A DNA stretch of 64,000 nt from Clostridia bacterium. GTDB lineage: Bacteria > Bacillota_A > Clostridia > Oscillospirales > Acutalibacteraceae. Location of the stretch: positions 322,755 through 386,754 of the forward strand of contig JAFTLL010000004.1 in the NCBI GenBank assembly GCA_017456015.1, given 5' to 3'. The position numbers and the translations under genes were made by a program. Of the stretch, positions 1,129 to 7,509 are shown piece after piece (positions within the stretch are counted from its first letter, which is position 1; the number at the start of each line of letters is the position of its first letter). The notes under the pieces were generated by a model that saw only the letters and a list, made by a program, of their open reading frames with translations, did not search any database and was not told the DNA's origin.

Positions 1129-2376
1129 ATGAAGGGTGAAATTCTTTGTGTCGGCACCGAGCTGTTGATGGGCGAGGTGTTAAACACCAATGTACAATAT
1201 CTGTCGCAAGGCTTGAAGCAATGCGGTATTCATGTCTATCATCATACGACGGTGGGGGACAATCCCGAACGGTTGCGTGAACAGTTTTTGCAATCGCTGT
1301 CGCGCAGTGATGTCGTCGTTTTATCGGGCGGCCTCGGACCGACCGGAGATGATATTACAAAAGAGGTCGTTGCCGACAGTCTGGGACTCGCGCAGCATAC
1401 CGATTCTGAACAACTGCAAAAAATTCGCGGTTATTTTGAGAGTATAGGCCGCGAAATGACCGAAAACAATAAAAAACAGGCCGAAATTCCCGAAACGGCG
1501 GCCGTTCTGCACAATGCCGTTGGGACAGCACCGGGAATTTATATCCAGAAAGACGGCAAGCATATTTTCTTATTGCCGGGTGTGCCCTCGGAAATGCGGC
1601 CAATGTTTGATATACAGGTGCGGCCGGTGCTGTGCGGTTTTTCGGCAGGACAACTGGTTTCGCACAGTGTTCTGATTTTCGGCATGGGGGAATCGGCGGT
1701 AGATGACCGCTTGCAGGAGCTCATGCAGGGCGCAAACCCAACCGTATCCCCCTATTGCAAAACCGGCGAGGTTTCCCTGCGCGTCGCTTCCTTTGCCGAT
1801 ACGAAACAGGAGGGCGAGGCCGCCTGTGCACAGGCGATTGCTGAAATTTATAAGGTTTGCGGAGAATATGTTGTCGGTGTAGATGTAACCGATTTGCAAA
1901 CGGTTGTGGTCAAATTGCTGGCCGAGAAAAAATTAAAATTGGCGACAGCCGAAAGCTGTACCGGCGGCCTGATCAGCCGCAAGCTGACCGAGGTCAGCGG
2001 TGCTTCGGCCGTCTTTGATTTCGGTGCTTGTGTCTATGCCAACGCCATGAAGCAGAAGCTGCTCGGCGTATCGGCCGAAACCTTACAGCAATACGGCGCT
2101 GTCAGCCGCCAAACGGCGGAGGAAATGGCCGCGGGGGTATGCCGCTATGCCGATGCAGAACTCGGACTTTCGGTTACCGGCGTTGCCGGACCGGGTGCCA
2201 GCGAAAACAAGCCGGTCGGTCTGATTTATATTGCACTGCAAACCCCTCAAAAATGCTTTACAAAGGAATTGAAGCTATTTTCAAAAAGTTATACACGGGA
2301 AACCATACGGGAGTTGACCGCCAAACACGCGCTGGATATGGTACGTCGGTATCTTTGTTTTGGGAATATAGAATAG
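1129..2376 (+). CDS. cinA: CinA family nicotinamide-nucleotide amidase / competence-damage protein
   Basis: This is a full-length two-domain CinA of 415 residues. The N-terminal MoCF-type domain (about 1-170) opens with GEILCVGTELLMGEVLNTN and contains the SGGLGPTGDD loop; the C-terminal PncC-type amidohydrolase domain (about 255-412) contains TAESCTGGLISRKLTEV and VTGVAGPGA. Family members hydrolyse ADP-ribose-type substrates and deamidate nicotinamide mononucleotide in pyridine nucleotide salvage. The ATG follows the thiI stop codon directly with no spacer. The next gene begins 14 bases later and its N-terminal domain resembles this protein's MoCF domain, which suggests a local duplication. 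Confidence 0.95.
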   Translation: MKGEILCVGTELLMGEVLNTNVQYLSQGLKQCGIHVYHHTTVGDNPERLREQFLQSLSRSDVVVLSGGLGPTGDDITKEVVADSLGLAQHTDSEQLQKIRGYFESIGREMTENNKKQAEIPETAAVLHNAVGTAPGIYIQKDGKHIFLLPGVPSEMRPMFDIQVRPVLCGFSAGQLVSHSVLIFGMGESAVDDRLQELMQGANPTVSPYCKTGEVSLRVASFADTKQEGEAACAQAIAEIYKVCGEYVVGVDVTDLQTVVVKLLAEKKLKLATAESCTGGLISRKLTEVSGASAVFDFGACVYANAMKQKLLGVSAETLQQYGAVSRQTAEEMAAGVCRYADAELGLSVTGVAGPGASENKPVGLIYIALQTPQKCFTKELKLFSKSYTRETIRELTAKHALDMVRRYLCFGNIE

Positions 2377-2390
2377 AAAGGAATTAGAAC

Positions 2391-5300
2391 ATGGCCGGAA
2401 ACATTAAACTGGAAATTATCTATTACAAAACTGAGCCGGATGCAATGCTGGAATTTGGTTTGCAGGGCAATTTTGCCATGCGCATTTTGAGCAGTCGCGC
2501 ACAAAACGCTGCTGAGATTATTGCCGCTTTGAAAAAGGCTTCGGTACGGAATGAGTTTATTGTTGTTGTCGGCGGTTTTGAGGATAAAGAAGTGGTTCAG
2601 GTCATTTCCCGAGCCATTGGCAGAGAGGCTGTGCCGGTTTCGCAGTATACCGAAGCGGCACAAAACGAAGAAATTCTGGTTCCCACCGATGCCATTCCTT
2701 TGGTAGCCGAGAATGACTGCCTTTGCGGAGCGGTCATTGAAAGCGGATACCAGAGCATTTTACTGCTCAGCGGTGAAAAGCAACGGCGCGATATGGTCTT
2801 AAAGCCCTTGCTTTTGCCCTATTTGACCGAACGGTATAAAGAAATTCACGCGTCGCAATTTGCATCTGAACCGACCGAGCAGGAGGAAATCTTGCCGGAG
2901 CAGGTGCCGCCGACCGAAATACCGGCTGAGGAAGAAATCTTGCCGGAAGAACCCGAAATGCCGGCCGAAGAAGAAACCCTGCCGGCAGAACCGGAGGTAC
3001 CGGCAGAGGAAACCGAACCGACCGGAACGGAATATGTGTTTACAGGTGAGGAAGCCTCGGCAGACGAAGAGGAATTTTTACCTGAGATAGATGAGTGGCC
3101 GGACTTTGTGTCAGACCTGCCTGTAATCGAAGAGGAGGAAACACCGCCGCCGAAAAAGAAAAAGCGTCGGGTTTGGCTGATATTGCTAATCCTCTTTTTA
3201 TCCTTAGCCTTGGTGGCAGGCTCGGCCTTTTCCTATTTGTTTTATTTTGTGCCTTGGCAAAACAGTAGAAAAATCGAAAACTTTACCGCAATGTTCGCCG
3301 AGGACGATACACTTACCGCGCTGGGTGATGTAAACCCGGATACGGCCGGTTGGCTGAATATGTCGGGCGCCGATATTGTGACGCCGGTCGTCTATGCGGA
3401 TAACGACAGCGCAGATTACTACCGTTACCATTTGCTTGACGGTACAATCAACCCCATCGGCACACCCTATATTACCAAGGACGCCGAACCCTTTTCGGGC
3501 CTTTATATTGTCCGCATGGACGGATATTTTGAAAAGCTGAGCCAATATTTGGATTCTGCATTTGTGCAAAACAACCGCAGATTGCAGCTCCGTTCGGTTT
3601 CTTATTTGGCCGATTGGCAGGTTTTCAGTGCCTTTACCTTTGGAAAAGAACCGGCGTTTGATTATTTGAAGGCCGATTTTTCGGATGCGGCCGAATATGC
3701 CAAGCAATTGCTGATTTTGAAAAATGCTAGCAAAATCGGCAAAGAAATTACGGTAGAAGAAGGGGATACGGTTGCGCTTTTCGCGGCCACGCGTTTCGGT
3801 GAAACGGTTGTGGTTGCGGCGCGTATGGTTTTCCAGAGTGAGGCCAATCCGGCCGTTGAAACGGTAACCGACCCGGTAGAATCTGTATTTTCAGAAGTCG
3901 AATCAATAATTGACAGTACTTCGAGTGAAACCGAATCGACGGTTTCTCAACCGGCGGTTGAATATAAAGCGGAGGATAATAAAATAGTCCTCACAGACAA
4001 GGAAGAAAATGACGATACCAATCTTCCGCCCCTTTCAGATGCCGAAATTAAAGACAATCTGGATATTCCCACTACGCCGCCGGTTTCCTCTACGGTCACC
4101 TCTTCCAGTCGCCCGGCAAGTTCTACGGCATCCACGGTAACCGGTCCGTACGTGACTGTGGAATCCAATAACGTCAATGTGCGTTCGGGCGCGGGAACCG
4201 GCTATGGTAAATTGGGCAAGGCCAGCACCACAGCCACCTATGCCTACCTCGGTGCCGCCAAGGATAATAACGGCGCGGATTGGTATAAAATTCAGTACAC
4301 AGCCGCAACGGTCGGTTATGTAAGTGCAGAGTATGCCACCCGGCATAATTACACCGAATCCTCCTCATCGTCGGCATCTTCTACCGTAACCAGCAGTACG
4401 CCGAGCAATCTGGTGGTTACGGTTTTGAGCAACGGTGTCAATGTCCGTTCGGGTGCCGGAACCAATTACAGCAAATTGGGGCAGGTCAATCTCGGGCAGG
4501 TGTTTACCTATCTGTCTGAAAAAACGGTTTCGGGCTTGGCTTGGTATTCTTTTCAGTATACTACCGATAAGGTAGGATGGATTCGCTCGGATTTTGCTTC
4601 AAAATCAACCCTTGATACCGCACCTTCGTCGAGCAATATTGCTTTGGGTAATGTTGTGCTCACGGTAAGGAACAACGGCGTTCCTTTACAAGGAACGGCG
4701 CTGGATATTGTGGCCAGCGTAATTGAAGCCGAAATGGGTTCAGGCTATCCGCTGGAAGCCTTGAAGGCACAGGCAGTAGCAACCTATTCCTTCCTGCTGG
4801 TGCGCGGTGCCGCAAAGGGCACTCCCGTAACCGTGCCGATGAAGGATGCTGGAACGCGCTGCTATCAGGCGGCCAAGGAGGTATTGGGCCAATGCGCCTA
4901 TTATAACGGCCAGATTGCGCAAACCTACTATTACGCCATTTCGGCCGGCTACACCGCCAATTGCCAGGATATTTGGTCGGCCAAAATCCCCTATTTGGTG
5001 GCGGTAGAATCCACACCGGACAAATCGGCCAAAGGCTATGCCACCGAAAAGAGCTTTACAAGCGAGGAGTTAAAGGCAATATTTAATGCCAAATATCCCG
5101 GCAAGTTCTCCTTTGATAATTTACCAAAGGAAAAATGGTTTGTCTGTACATACGATAGCAATAACGCATACTGTAAGGCCTTTTTAATCGCAAACTGTTT
5201 AACTATAAAGGGCAATAGTCTGTGCGGTTTGCTGGGTCTGCGCTCGGGCGCATTTACCTTAACCTATAATGCTGAAACCGACACCTTCACCTTTAAAGTT

Positions 5301-5417
5301 TACGGCCACGGCCACGGCGTCGGGCTTTCACAGGTCGGAGCCAGGGGTTATGCCAATGAGGGCTGGGACTATAAAAAGATTTTACAGCACTATTACCCCG
5401 GCGTTGTGATTAAATAA
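2391..5417 (+). CDS. SpoIID/LytB-domain membrane protein with pseudo-sortase and two SH3b domains
   Basis: A 1008-residue multidomain surface protein. Seen in order: an N-terminal domain (1-152) that aligns without gaps with part of the CinA MoCF domain; an acidic Glu/Pro-rich stretch (about 165-250) with repeated PAEEE-type units; KKKKRR and a single transmembrane helix (about 261-290); a domain at about 300-480 that follows the class B sortase pattern (NPDTAGWLNM at 315) but lacks the His, Cys and Arg of the active site; a Ser/Thr-rich linker; two bacterial SH3 repeats (about 587-651 and 674-738), each with NVRSGAGT; and a SpoIID domain (about 754-1008) with VIEAEMGSGYPLEALKAQAV and the terminal GHGHGVGLSQVGARGYA. 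SpoIID domains cleave peptidoglycan glycan strands, so a cell-wall role outside the membrane is inferred. AAAGGAATTAGAAC precedes the ATG. A terminator follows. Confidence 0.9.
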   Translation: MAGNIKLEIIYYKTEPDAMLEFGLQGNFAMRILSSRAQNAAEIIAALKKASVRNEFIVVVGGFEDKEVVQVISRAIGREAVPVSQYTEAAQNEEILVPTDAIPLVAENDCLCGAVIESGYQSILLLSGEKQRRDMVLKPLLLPYLTERYKEIHASQFASEPTEQEEILPEQVPPTEIPAEEEILPEEPEMPAEEETLPAEPEVPAEETEPTGTEYVFTGEEASADEEEFLPEIDEWPDFVSDLPVIEEEETPPPKKKKRRVWLILLILFLSLALVAGSAFSYLFYFVPWQNSRKIENFTAMFAEDDTLTALGDVNPDTAGWLNMSGADIVTPVVYADNDSADYYRYHLLDGTINPIGTPYITKDAEPFSGLYIVRMDGYFEKLSQYLDSAFVQNNRRLQLRSVSYLADWQVFSAFTFGKEPAFDYLKADFSDAAEYAKQLLILKNASKIGKEITVEEGDTVALFAATRFGETVVVAARMVFQSEANPAVETVTDPVESVFSEVESIIDSTSSETESTVSQPAVEYKAEDNKIVLTDKEENDDTNLPPLSDAEIKDNLDIPTTPPVSSTVTSSSRPASSTASTVTGPYVTVESNNVNVRSGAGTGYGKLGKASTTATYAYLGAAKDNNGADWYKIQYTAATVGYVSAEYATRHNYTESSSSSASSTVTSSTPSNLVVTVLSNGVNVRSGAGTNYSKLGQVNLGQVFTYLSEKTVSGLAWYSFQYTTDKVGWIRSDFASKSTLDTAPSSSNIALGNVVLTVRNNGVPLQGTALDIVASVIEAEMGSGYPLEALKAQAVATYSFLLVRGAAKGTPVTVPMKDAGTRCYQAAKEVLGQCAYYNGQIAQTYYYAISAGYTANCQDIWSAKIPYLVAVESTPDKSAKGYATEKSFTSEELKAIFNAKYPGKFSFDNLPKEKWFVCTYDSNNAYCKAFLIANCLTIKGNSLCGLLGLRSGAFTLTYNAETDTFTFKVYGHGHGVGLSQVGARGYANEGWDYKKILQHYYPGVVIK

Positions 5418-5426
5418 ATATAAAAA

Positions 5427-5457
5427 GATGCTTTCATTTTGAAAGCATCTTTTTTTT
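5427..5457 (+). terminator. Intrinsic terminator after the SpoIID gene
   Basis: A perfect 9-bp stem GATGCTTTC / GAAAGCATC with an ATTTT loop is followed by eight T residues. It ends the thiI-cinA-SpoIID transcription unit ten bases after the stop codon. Confidence 0.92.
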
Positions 5458-5465
5458 ATAGGGGG

Positions 5466-5494
5466 TTTACAAAAATGTATAAATGCGGTATAAT
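5466..5494 (+). promoter_or_regulatory. Sigma-A promoter of the small RNA / XRE leader
   Basis: TTTACA at 5466-5471 and TATAAT at 5489-5494 are separated by 17 bases. The predicted transcription start, about 5500, coincides with the first base of a 28-bp helix. Confidence 0.75.
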
Positions 5495-5498
5495 ACGA

Positions 5499-5661
5499 TT
5501 GCAACTCAAATTTTAATTATCGAAAGCGGTTTGTGTTTTTTCTTTTGGTAAAAGCATAGGCTCTTATTCATCATATACTGTTTTCGGTAATTATGGAATT
5601 TGTGTTGCAACAAACAGAGCCGGGTGTTTTTCGAGTGCGTGGCTCTGCTACGCACTTTTTT
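5499..5661 (+). ncRNA. Candidate structured small RNA or attenuating leader
   Basis: Hand folding gives a long closing helix: 5499-5505 pairs with 5604-5610 (7 bp), 5507-5514 with 5595-5602 (8 bp, two GU) and 5515-5527 with 5580-5592 (13 bp, two GU), with only one mismatch and a two-base bulge. The apical 52 bases hold a small hairpin CTTTT-GGT-AAAAG (5542-5554) and GGCTCT (5559-5564). The helix is followed by CAGAGCC (5615-5621) and a terminator hairpin AGTGCGT/ACGCACT (5634-5640 with 5650-5656) whose loop contains GGCTCTG (5641-5647), fully complementary to CAGAGCC. A promoter sits just upstream and six T residues follow the hairpin. No coding frame is convincing here. It may be a free RNA of about 160 nt, 6S-like in shape only, or a leader controlling the XRE gene 30 bases downstream. 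I do not recognise the family. Confidence 0.6.
5634..5661 (+). terminator. Terminator hairpin between the RNA element and the XRE gene
   Basis: A 7-bp stem AGTGCGT / ACGCACT with a nine-base loop is followed by six T residues, 32 bases before the XRE start codon. Its loop can pair with upstream bases 5615-5621, so it may be conditional. Confidence 0.65.
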
Positions 5662-5692
5662 GTGCGAAAAATACCGAAAGGAAAATAAAATC

Positions 5693-6028
5693 ATGGAAAA
5701 AACATATTTACAACAGGTGGGTGAACGGTTGCAACAGTGCCGTACCCGCAATTTTTTCTCCCGTAAAGAACTGGCAGAACGGGCGGGAGTTCCAATTTCT
5801 TCCATAAAAAAGATGGAAAGAGGTCAAGAAGCGGTAGGCATTGATGATGCAATAAAAATCTGCAAGGAATTGGACAGCAGTGCAGAATATATTCTCACCG
5901 GAGCTTGCGGTCTTACGGAATTGATTCGCTTAAACCAAAAGATTTTGAATTTGCCGGATATTCGCTCGGAAAATTTACAAAAAATAGCGCAGGCTTTTTG
6001 GAGTACCTGTCCAAGATTATTTCGTTGA
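5693..6028 (+). CDS. XRE-family helix-turn-helix regulator
   Basis: A 111-residue protein whose first 65 residues form a Cro/CI-type helix-turn-helix, with RKELAERAGVPISSIKKMERG as the recognition region (positions about 23-43). The C-terminal 45 residues have no recognised domain. The ATG at 5693 is chosen because GAAAGGA lies ten bases upstream; the open frame extends back to 5600 but that part runs through the structured RNA and the terminator hairpin. The gene stands alone between two terminators and is read convergently with glgA. Target unknown; autoregulation together with the leader RNA is possible but not shown. Confidence 0.82.
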   Translation: MEKTYLQQVGERLQQCRTRNFFSRKELAERAGVPISSIKKMERGQEAVGIDDAIKICKELDSSAEYILTGACGLTELIRLNQKILNLPDIRSENLQKIAQAFWSTCPRLFR

Positions 6029-6038
6029 ACTAAAATTA

Positions 6039-6078
6039 ACGGAGACAGCTTCTTTGCGAAGTGTCTCCGTTTTCTTTG
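6039..6078. terminator. Terminator between the XRE gene and glgA
   Basis: ACGGAGACAGCTTC and GAAGTGTCTCCGT form a long, slightly imperfect stem around a TTTGC loop, followed by TTTTC. It lies between convergent genes and may serve both, with the better T tract on the plus strand. Confidence 0.75.
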
Positions 6079-6087
6079 TTGTGAATG

Positions 6088-7509
6088 TTATTTTCCAATC
6101 AGCTCTTTGTACAAGCGGATATATTTGTTTGCCGAATTTCCCCAGCTGTTGTCGCAGGCCATGGCGCGCCGGATGAGCAGCTCCCAGCCCGCTTTGTCGC
6201 GGTAGCCTTCCAGCGCACGCCATACGGCGTGGTCCATGTCATGGGCGTTATAGGAGGCAAAGGTAAAGCCGTTGCCCTCTCCGTCGCCCGAATCGATGAC
6301 GGTGTCTTTCAGACCGCCGGTTTGTCGTACCACCGGAATGGTGCCGTAGCGCAGAGCAACCATTTGCGCAAGACCGCAGGGTTCGCTCTTGGAGGGCATG
6401 AGGAAAATGTCTGCGCCGGCGTAAATCTTGTGCGCCAGTTCGGGGATAAAGCCGAGCCGCAGGGCTACCTTTTGGGGATAGCGCTTTTGCATTTCGTGGA
6501 AGAAATTCTCATATTCCAATTCTCCCGAACCGAGAATGGCAAACTGCACATCGCCGTCCAGCATCGACGAAAAAACGCGTTCGACCAAATCAAAGCCCTT
6601 GTGGGAAGCGAAACGGGAAACCATACCGATGATGGGTGTGTCGGGAGAAACGGGCAGACCCAACTCTTTTTGCAATTGGGCTTTGTTTTGCGCCTTACCT
6701 GTAAGATTATCGGCGGTGTAGGAGGCATAAATCATCGGGTCGGTTTCGGGATTGTAGACCTCCACATCAATACCATTAACAATGCCGCACAATTTCCATT
6801 TGCGCTCGCGCAAAATCGGGTCGAGGCCGTGCGCATACCACGGGTCGAGAATTTCCTCGGCATAGGTGGGGCTGACGGTTGTAATGCGGTCACAGCATTC
6901 AATTGCACCCTTCATCATATTGATACAGCCATCCCATTCGAGATAATGCGCCTGTTCTTCCGGAACACCCAGTACATCCTGCAAGAGCTCCATGCCGTAC
7001 TTGCCCTGGTATTGAATATTGTGAATGGTGAAAACGGTTTTTATATTTTTATATTTTTCGTCCTGCCGATACATGAGTTCCAGGAAAACCGGAACCATGG
7101 CGGTCTGCCAATCGTTGCAATGGATAATATCCGGCATAAAATTGATATACGGAATCATTTCCAAGACGGCACGGGAGAAAAAGGTAAACCGCTCGGCATC
7201 ATCGTAATGTCCGTAGAGTCCTTGCCGTTTGAAATAATATTGATTGTCAATAAAATAATAAATTACGCCGTTGTGGTGCGCCTCAAAAATACCGCAGTAT
7301 TGGCGCCGCCAAGCCACCGGAACGGTGATGGAGGTAATGTATTTCATTTCGGCGCGCAGTGCATCGGGAATCGATTCATACAGCGGCATAACCACACGGC
7401 AACCGATAAGGCGTCGGCGTTCGGTCTTGGGTAACGCGCCGGCCACATCGGCCAAACCGCCCGACATAGCGAAGGGGTAGGCTTCGCTGGTTGCGTATAA
7501 AACTTTCAT
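6088..7509 (-). CDS. glgA: Glycogen synthase GlgA
   Basis: GT5-family ADP-glucose-dependent glycogen synthase of 473 residues, extending alpha-1,4-glucan chains in the cytoplasm. It has the two Rossmann lobes of the family, with SGGLADVAGALP near residues 17-28, HNIQYQGKYG near 170, and the C-terminal donor-site motif SKSEPCGLAQMVALRYGTIPVV near 376-397. The ATG at 7509 is preceded by GGAGAAACGC and overlaps the glgD stop as TAATG, so translation is coupled. An upstream extension exists but has no ribosome site. The Lys of the usual KTGGL motif near residue 15 reads Met-Ser here (AMSGGL), which is unusual against well-studied GlgA proteins but may be lineage-normal. Confidence 0.95.
   Translation of the reverse strand: MKVLYATSEAYPFAMSGGLADVAGALPKTERRRLIGCRVVMPLYESIPDALRAEMKYITSITVPVAWRRQYCGIFEAHHNGVIYYFIDNQYYFKRQGLYGHYDDAERFTFFSRAVLEMIPYINFMPDIIHCNDWQTAMVPVFLELMYRQDEKYKNIKTVFTIHNIQYQGKYGMELLQDVLGVPEEQAHYLEWDGCINMMKGAIECCDRITTVSPTYAEEILDPWYAHGLDPILRERKWKLCGIVNGIDVEVYNPETDPMIYASYTADNLTGKAQNKAQLQKELGLPVSPDTPIIGMVSRFASHKGFDLVERVFSSMLDGDVQFAILGSGELEYENFFHEMQKRYPQKVALRLGFIPELAHKIYAGADIFLMPSKSEPCGLAQMVALRYGTIPVVRQTGGLKDTVIDSGDGEGNGFTFASYNAHDMDHAVWRALEGYRDKAGWELLIRRAMACDNSWGNSANKYIRLYKELIGK

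Follow-up and report, generated by a model that had tools for sequence, protein, structure and literature searches.

Candidate RNA switches that mostly carry a promoter: an apparently undescribed family in relatives of Oscillospiraceae

A structured element at positions 5466-5661 of a 64,000-nucleotide stretch of Clostridia bacterium DNA (the window) represents an apparently undescribed family of candidate RNA switches. Most copies of the family, which occurs in relatives of Oscillospiraceae, have a promoter of their own. The long helix, promoter and complementary loops of the window belong to this multi-copy, probably cis-regulatory RNA family. With high confidence, the element is read as the 5' leader of a gene for an XRE-family regulator and as a member of a family of promoter-plus-attenuator cassettes. 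Its best reading is that of a cis-acting transcription attenuator, rather than a free small RNA or a 6S RNA. Comparison of the copies supports the four alternative helices, the promoter and the position before genes. The tests agree with the original prediction of a structured RNA, so far undescribed, that has its own promoter and an on/off switch: the RNA reached no Rfam threshold in the loci scanned, its covariation is strong and its promoter is conserved.

The element in the window

The features of the element are collected in Table 1. The promoter that had been predicted is present and carries 11 of the 12 consensus bases. It was also the sole promoter-like site reported by a promoter scan of positions 5300-6150. 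Shuffled versions of this region held a mean of 1.9 such sites, so the consensus match alone is weak, and the promoter is convincing because it is conserved family-wide. Transcription probably starts near 5500-5502. If no other promoter exists, the XRE gene would be expressed by read-through only; the scan showed no second promoter-like site. The protein encoded upstream of the element, at 2391-5417, is 1008 aa long and combines SH3_3 repeats with a SpoIID domain.

Table 1. Features of the element and of the gene behind it (window coordinates)
Feature	Position	Strand	Description and basis
Sigma-70 promoter	5466..5494	+	-35 TTTACA, 17-nt spacer, -10 TATAAT; promoter scan and family conservation of the -10 box
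P1a 5' arm	5499..5511	+	TTGCAACTCAAAT; base of the long helix, partner 5598-5610; family covariation
Upper P1 5' arm	5512..5530	+	partner within 5577-5597; sequence varies, pairing maintained
P2 hairpin	5533..5557	+	GTGTTTTTTC 5533-5542, loop TTTT, GGTAAAAGCAT 5547-5557; covariation
Strand A	5550..5564	+	AAAAGCATAGGCTCT; P2 3' arm plus GGCTCT; complement of L
P1 3' arm	5577..5610	+	last bases TTGCAA
Strand L	5615..5631	+	CAGAGCCGGGTGTTTTT; partner A, or T (antiterminator)
Strand T	5635..5647	+	terminator 5' arm and loop; contains GGCTCTG 5641-5647
Strand T'	5647..5661	+	terminator 3' arm 5647-5655, T run 5656-5661
XRE-family regulator	5693..6028	+	111 aa, ATG at 5693

The long helix is real. 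In the MFE fold, 5499-5505 and 5507-5530 pair with 5577-5593, 5596-5602 and 5604-5610, giving 31 pairs with one T.T mismatch and one 2-nt bulge; 28 pairs had been counted initially, in 5499-5527 and 5580-5610. For the segment 5496-5665 the folding energy is -60.4 kcal/mol; shuffled sequences average -35.1 (sd 4.1; z -6.2), and none of 200 shuffles folded as well. P2 is absent from this single-sequence MFE structure. The expected terminator-like hairpin was located by a scan at 5633-5657, followed by a T run; shuffled sequences contained a mean of 1.0 such sites. As had been claimed, CAGAGCC (5615-5621) is complementary to GGCTCTG (5641-5647) in the terminator loop and, over six bases, to GGCTCT (5559-5564) in the apical loop. 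The apical complementarity exceeds that earlier description and amounts to 14 pairs, formed by 5550-5564 with the linker 5616-5631.

Family copies and their distribution

A protein-library search with the window XRE protein returned 62 proteins at E <= 0.001, its own entry included, many of them 111 aa long. Orthologs were sought in 394 genomes from the order to which G002 belongs (G002 is the source of locus L002 and is titled Oscillospiraceae bacterium); a single genome, G139, has a clear XRE ortholog (E 1.7e-34). The regulator at this locus (L009) is 44% identical to that of the window over 108 aa. The DNA upstream of it has the same design: a -10 box, P1, P2, GGAGCC, a terminator and a T run. 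When the two leaders were aligned, 98.6% of the three-helix cells paired, against 35-57% with slid partners. Two pairs were changed on both sides, which 131 of 500 shuffles equalled, and the two-sequence comparison therefore proves little alone. Between the main terminator and the XRE gene, L009 also contains two extra terminator-like repeats (GTGCGT...ACGCACTTTTTT; 1830-1950, minus strand), and the window has one terminator only.

A second match in the order sample, in G134 (4e-19), belongs to a leaderless locus, and loci L010-L020 are likewise XRE genes without it. No further clear ortholog was found in the genus and family of G139 or in the genus of G181, nor among 398 genomes of the G181 family at E <= 1e-22; in the G181 genus, 8 of 70 genomes gave only weaker matches at leaderless loci. 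Profile scans with the XRE alignment yielded two distant XRE genes in genome contigs and two in viral contigs, nothing closer. The six listed proteins from the library search that are at least 130 aa long (P0015, P0021, P0029, P0048, P0053 and P0054) carry N-terminal extensions. In all six, the extension resembles the translated leader, in two different frames, and 0 of 500 shuffles did so for each. Leader-like upstream sequence was thus present in 8 of 8 XRE members with upstream information (these six, the window and L009). The leader frame differs between relatives, which argues that the leader is non-coding. The protein library searched with translated pieces of the leader returned the source proteins only. 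The window DNA had no match among phages and plasmids, the XRE protein had none among phages and one among plasmids (31%), and exact-pattern scans of viral contigs gave 0 hits.

A covariance model, R1, was built from the window and L009. At E <= 0.001 it matched 112 of the 394 genomes in the order, with up to seven copies each. As R1 E-values are rough, the matches were retested with a model, R2, built after aligning 53 R1 matches. On loci around the listed R1 matches, R2 matched 100 of 100 sources (window and L009 included) in one run and 8 of 8 in another; 59 of the tested loci lay outside its training set, yet all were chosen from R1's list. This gave 113 copies from 108 sources, all at 83.8 bits or more and drawn from 66 genomes besides the window, whereas 18 unrelated loci reached at most 17.1 bits. 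In one genus, that of G181, G045 and G360, which is nearest to the window among the genomes compared by a putative GlgC-like protein and IF-2, R2 matched 60 of 70 genomes at E <= 1e-6, with up to 13 matches each. In a sample across the phylum at the same threshold, it matched 0 of 148 genomes apart from the centre genome G181 (149 drawn). Searches of more than 40 genomes used stricter filters, so these presence counts are lower bounds.

The RNA of the window and of 20 fetched loci reached the curated threshold of no family in Rfam release 15, a search that the original prediction had proposed as a check. The loose Rfam matches in the window were all far below threshold and at chance level. A published description of the family was not found in a literature search (including PMC11109978) that covered parts of the articles.

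L164 (1627-1851) and L165 (1265-1486) hold longer variants of 222-225 nt with lower scores, which are perhaps a subfamily. Two contigs of G139 (L051, 1438-1553; L021, 1501-1675) break off at the same leader, inside it or immediately ahead of it, and appear to be adjacent pieces that the assembler split at the hairpin. The RNA is also carried by MT835845.1 (L166) and MT837627.1 (L167), metagenome records labelled Bacteriophage sp.; the genes around these leaders read as ordinary bacterial ones, and the phage label may be wrong.

Conserved architecture and alternative helices

Sufficient upstream DNA was available for 112 copies. A -10-like box that matches TATAAT in at least 5 of 6 bases lies close to the RNA start in 99 of these, and in 80 its position is identical; shuffled upstream DNA reached 5/6 in 32 of 112. 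Also conserved are the TTG of the -35 region (0.96, 0.91 and 0.77) and a TG ahead of the -10 box (0.96 and 0.96), which the window does not have. In 72 copies, P1 has a mean of 31.7 predicted pairs (range 18 to 37), and the P1 domain is of near constant length (median 113 nt, range 104-125). The upper P1 arms are free in sequence and tight in pairing: matched arms gave -18.7 kcal/mol and mismatched arms -7.1, with 0 of 5000 permutations as good. The P1a arms gave the same permutation result and are kept in sequence as well as in pairing, with A-U in 53 of 53 sequences at two pairs. The conserved unpaired bases are a CAA after P1 (85% or more) and an A, U and A on the 5' side of P1 (66, 61 and 67 of 72). 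The P1 internal loop suggested the UAA/GAN motif, a likeness that did not hold up: these 5' bases are conserved but the opposing ones are not. In alignment A4, which was fitted to R1 and is biased towards its structure, both partners of 27 of 34 predicted pairs have changed in one sequence or more. The family thus has a conserved secondary structure with compensatory changes.

Covariation was tested by comparing the pairing of segments from the same copy with that of segments from different copies, over 5000 permutations. With the 72 copies (of 105) that are less than 70% identical, P2, A:L, L:T and T:T' each gave 0 of 5000 permutations as good. The controls gave 187 (A:T'), 960 (A:T), 4423 (P2-5':T'), 4956 (P2-5':L) and 271 (upper P1 with L) of 5000; the permutations ignore the family tree, and two of these controls (187 and 271) come near significance. 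A set of 52 copies again gave 0 of 5000 for each of the four helices and 4789 for a control, and a 49-copy run gave 0 of 5000 for A:L. The covariation that the original prediction had asked to have checked in related genomes is strong across the family copies. Along the series P2-5', A, L, T, T', all neighbouring pairs are under selection, and every inner strand can pair with two others; this is the design of a transcription attenuator. L:T and T:T', the predicted, mutually exclusive antiterminator and terminator, both covary.

Mean energies are -9.8 kcal/mol for P2, -16.5 for A:L, -12.7 for the antiterminator and -16.3 for the terminator; the window values are -6.9 (a weak P2), -16.7, -12.8 and -16.9. 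Besides the weak P2, some features weigh against the attenuator reading. L:T in the window is broken by one mismatch. Some copies fold poorly as cut, with terminators down to -0.8 and antiterminators to 0.0 kcal/mol. A complete P1 would put A far from L, and A:L would require the upper P1 to open or bend.

In the proposed mechanism, RNA polymerase would start at the foot of P1 and make P1 with P2 at its tip, followed by L, T and T'. With A locked in P2, L would be free to pair with T as the antiterminator, and transcription would enter the gene. With A available, A would capture L in a slightly bulged helix of about 14-15 pairs, T:T' would form and transcription would stop at the T run. A ligand, protein or RNA acting on P1 or P2 would set the choice between these states. 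The terminator function of the hairpin, the default state and the direction of the response are all deduced from sequence and pairing.

Downstream genes and alternative explanations

Behind 62 of 113 copies, a start codon with a good ribosome site (at least 5 of the 6 bases of AGGAGG) lies no more than 40 nt away; among the controls this held for 1 of 110 antisense sides and for 9 of 336 random places. These 62 copies lie, by sequence alone, in the 5' leader of a gene, and so close a start leaves little room for a second promoter. At any distance, a good ribosome site was found behind 89 of 113 copies (30 of 110 antisense, 59 of 336 random). The median gap to the ORF was 19 nt (138 antisense, 132 random), and the median ORF length 250 aa (105 and 102). 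A same-strand ORF of at least 45 aa starts within 300 nt of 111 of the 113 copies, a bare count that is uninformative, since an ORF of this kind was also found on 99 of the 110 antisense sides and at 299 of the 336 random places.

The original prediction noted that the element precedes an XRE gene; this is true here, but XRE is merely one target of a family that stands before many different and unrelated genes, which often appear to encode cell-surface proteins. By a crude test, the start resembles a signal peptide in 59 of 111 downstream ORFs and in 20 of 67 other ORFs from these loci (Fisher p 0.003). A family scan was run on 104 downstream proteins, cut to at most 450 aa, from which duplicates, weak ribosome sites and gaps above 280 nt had first been removed. 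Among the best 25 of 52 families, BspA-type LRR_5 occurred in 20 of the 104, HTH_3 in 5, AMP-binding and DUF6809 in 3 each, and SLH and Peptidase_M23 in 2 each. At L056, L094, L134, L135, L138, L145 and L147, the protein encoded behind the copy is small (about 59-69 aa) and cysteine-bearing, like ENYxCIYExNGxCTLKEISLN. At L139, L141, L142, L149, L151 and L158, in the nearest genus, they precede putative short XRE-like proteins, as judged from translations.

Copies are also stacked before one gene: four in L161 (879-1672, minus strand), three in L054 (1547-2118) and two in L036 (1186-1677), with promoter-like sequence ahead of every copy and members that are often quite dissimilar. Two copies each also occur in L060, L064, L162 and L163.

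The original prediction had left the RNA as either a free small RNA or a leader, and the near starts favour the leader. A trans-acting RNA ending at 5661, with the downstream gene read by leakage, would explain the promoter and the terminator-like hairpin, the 42 of 113 copies with no start picked within 40 nt and the 2 with no ORF of at least 45 aa within 300 nt. It is nevertheless improbable, as the 62 copies with a near start and good ribosome site (against 1 of 110 antisense) are tied to the gene behind them, and the covarying relay of A, L and T makes best sense as regulated termination. Such a relay also resembles amino-acid attenuators, and a leader peptide whose ribosome position set the state could be encoded in the 8 of 72 leaders that have a ribosome-site-like sequence with an ORF of at least 5 codons. 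The other 64 have no such ORF, the inferred start lies within the first bases of P1, and the frames that gene callers draw through the leader vary among relatives, so that this reading is very improbable.

A DNA element, either an invertible promoter or terminator segment between inverted repeats or a hairpin-shaped mobile element, would account for the 13-bp inverted repeat ends about 110 bp apart, the multiple copies, the surface-protein targets and the contig breaks at the hairpin in G139. Surface genes of C. difficile are known to have invertible segments flanked by inverted repeats. The 113 copies, however, match the model end to end in a single orientation relative to the promoter side, and the antisense matches that were dropped are weak and overlap the same hairpins. 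Moreover, 72 of 105 copies are less than 70% identical to each other and so not recently mobile, while the upper P1 arms covary and several of the helices commonly contain G-U pairs; a DNA element is extremely improbable. A different kind of alternative is the attenuator itself with its effector named: a regulator, perhaps the XRE protein in the window, that binds P1 or L. It is a tentative option, suggested by the conservation of P1a in sequence as well as pairing and by the helix-turn-helix protein behind the window and L009 copies, which would fit autoregulation. Against an XRE effector, HTH_3 was found in only 5 of the 104 downstream proteins (best 25 of 52 families), and the 8 of 70 genus genomes with XRE matches gave only weaker, leaderless ones, while the RNA is in 60 of 70. 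The window XRE is unlikely as a general effector of the family; another protein could be.

Under the preferred reading, the transcription attenuator, the predicted mode of action is that of terminating riboswitches or of attenuators operated by a protein. With terminating riboswitches the element shares the place in the 5' leader, a structured 5' domain, the exclusive terminator and antiterminator and the several copies per genome. It differs in reaching the threshold of no Rfam family (window and 20 loci), in its fixed-place promoter and in its unrelated target genes. Cyclic di-GMP riboswitches also govern surface proteins. T-box leaders likewise have alternative terminators and antiterminators, as does this leader; the Rfam T-box model matched neither the window nor the RNA of the 20 scanned loci. 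The suggested resemblance to 6S RNA is unsupported. The two share a long rod-like fold, but the 6S rod has a large central bubble, which the rod of the element does not have, and the element lies close before a gene; 6S models gave no match and were absent from the 19 Rfam matches at E <= 10 for 5400-5720.

In PMC8040213, a study of candidate structured RNAs from human microbiomes, HTH_XRE is the domain reported most often directly downstream (15 candidates). This suggests that the present family may be among its unnamed candidates. The Clostridiales-1 motif, which PMC2864571 lists with an Rfam number, is absent from the Rfam matches here. Stacked regulatory RNAs before one gene are shared with the tandem riboswitches of PMC9481103; promoter-like sequence for each copy distinguishes the arrays in L161, L054 and L036, and the terms 'own', 'separate' or 'independent promoter' do not occur in that review.

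It is an evenly balanced question whether the family forms a new orphan riboswitch-like class, confined to one order as sampled. Such a class would place one complete promoter-plus-switch cassette before surface proteins, lipoproteins and regulators alike. A genome would carry several of them, sometimes in stacks of up to four with separate promoters, and together they would form a regulon answering one shared signal.

The bacterial group that carries the RNA is abundant in guts. As a regulatory RNA the family would be common across this large group, with matches in 112 of 394 genomes of the order and in 60 of 70 of one genus, and would have been missed by the current RNA library. It would tie many uncharacterised surface proteins (LRR_5 in 20 of 104, among the best 25 of 52 families) to one signal, and the hunt for that signal would become a direct biochemical task. 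Also, with its fixed promoter and the exclusive helices that follow as a relay, the element would make a good unit for studies of co-transcriptional folding.
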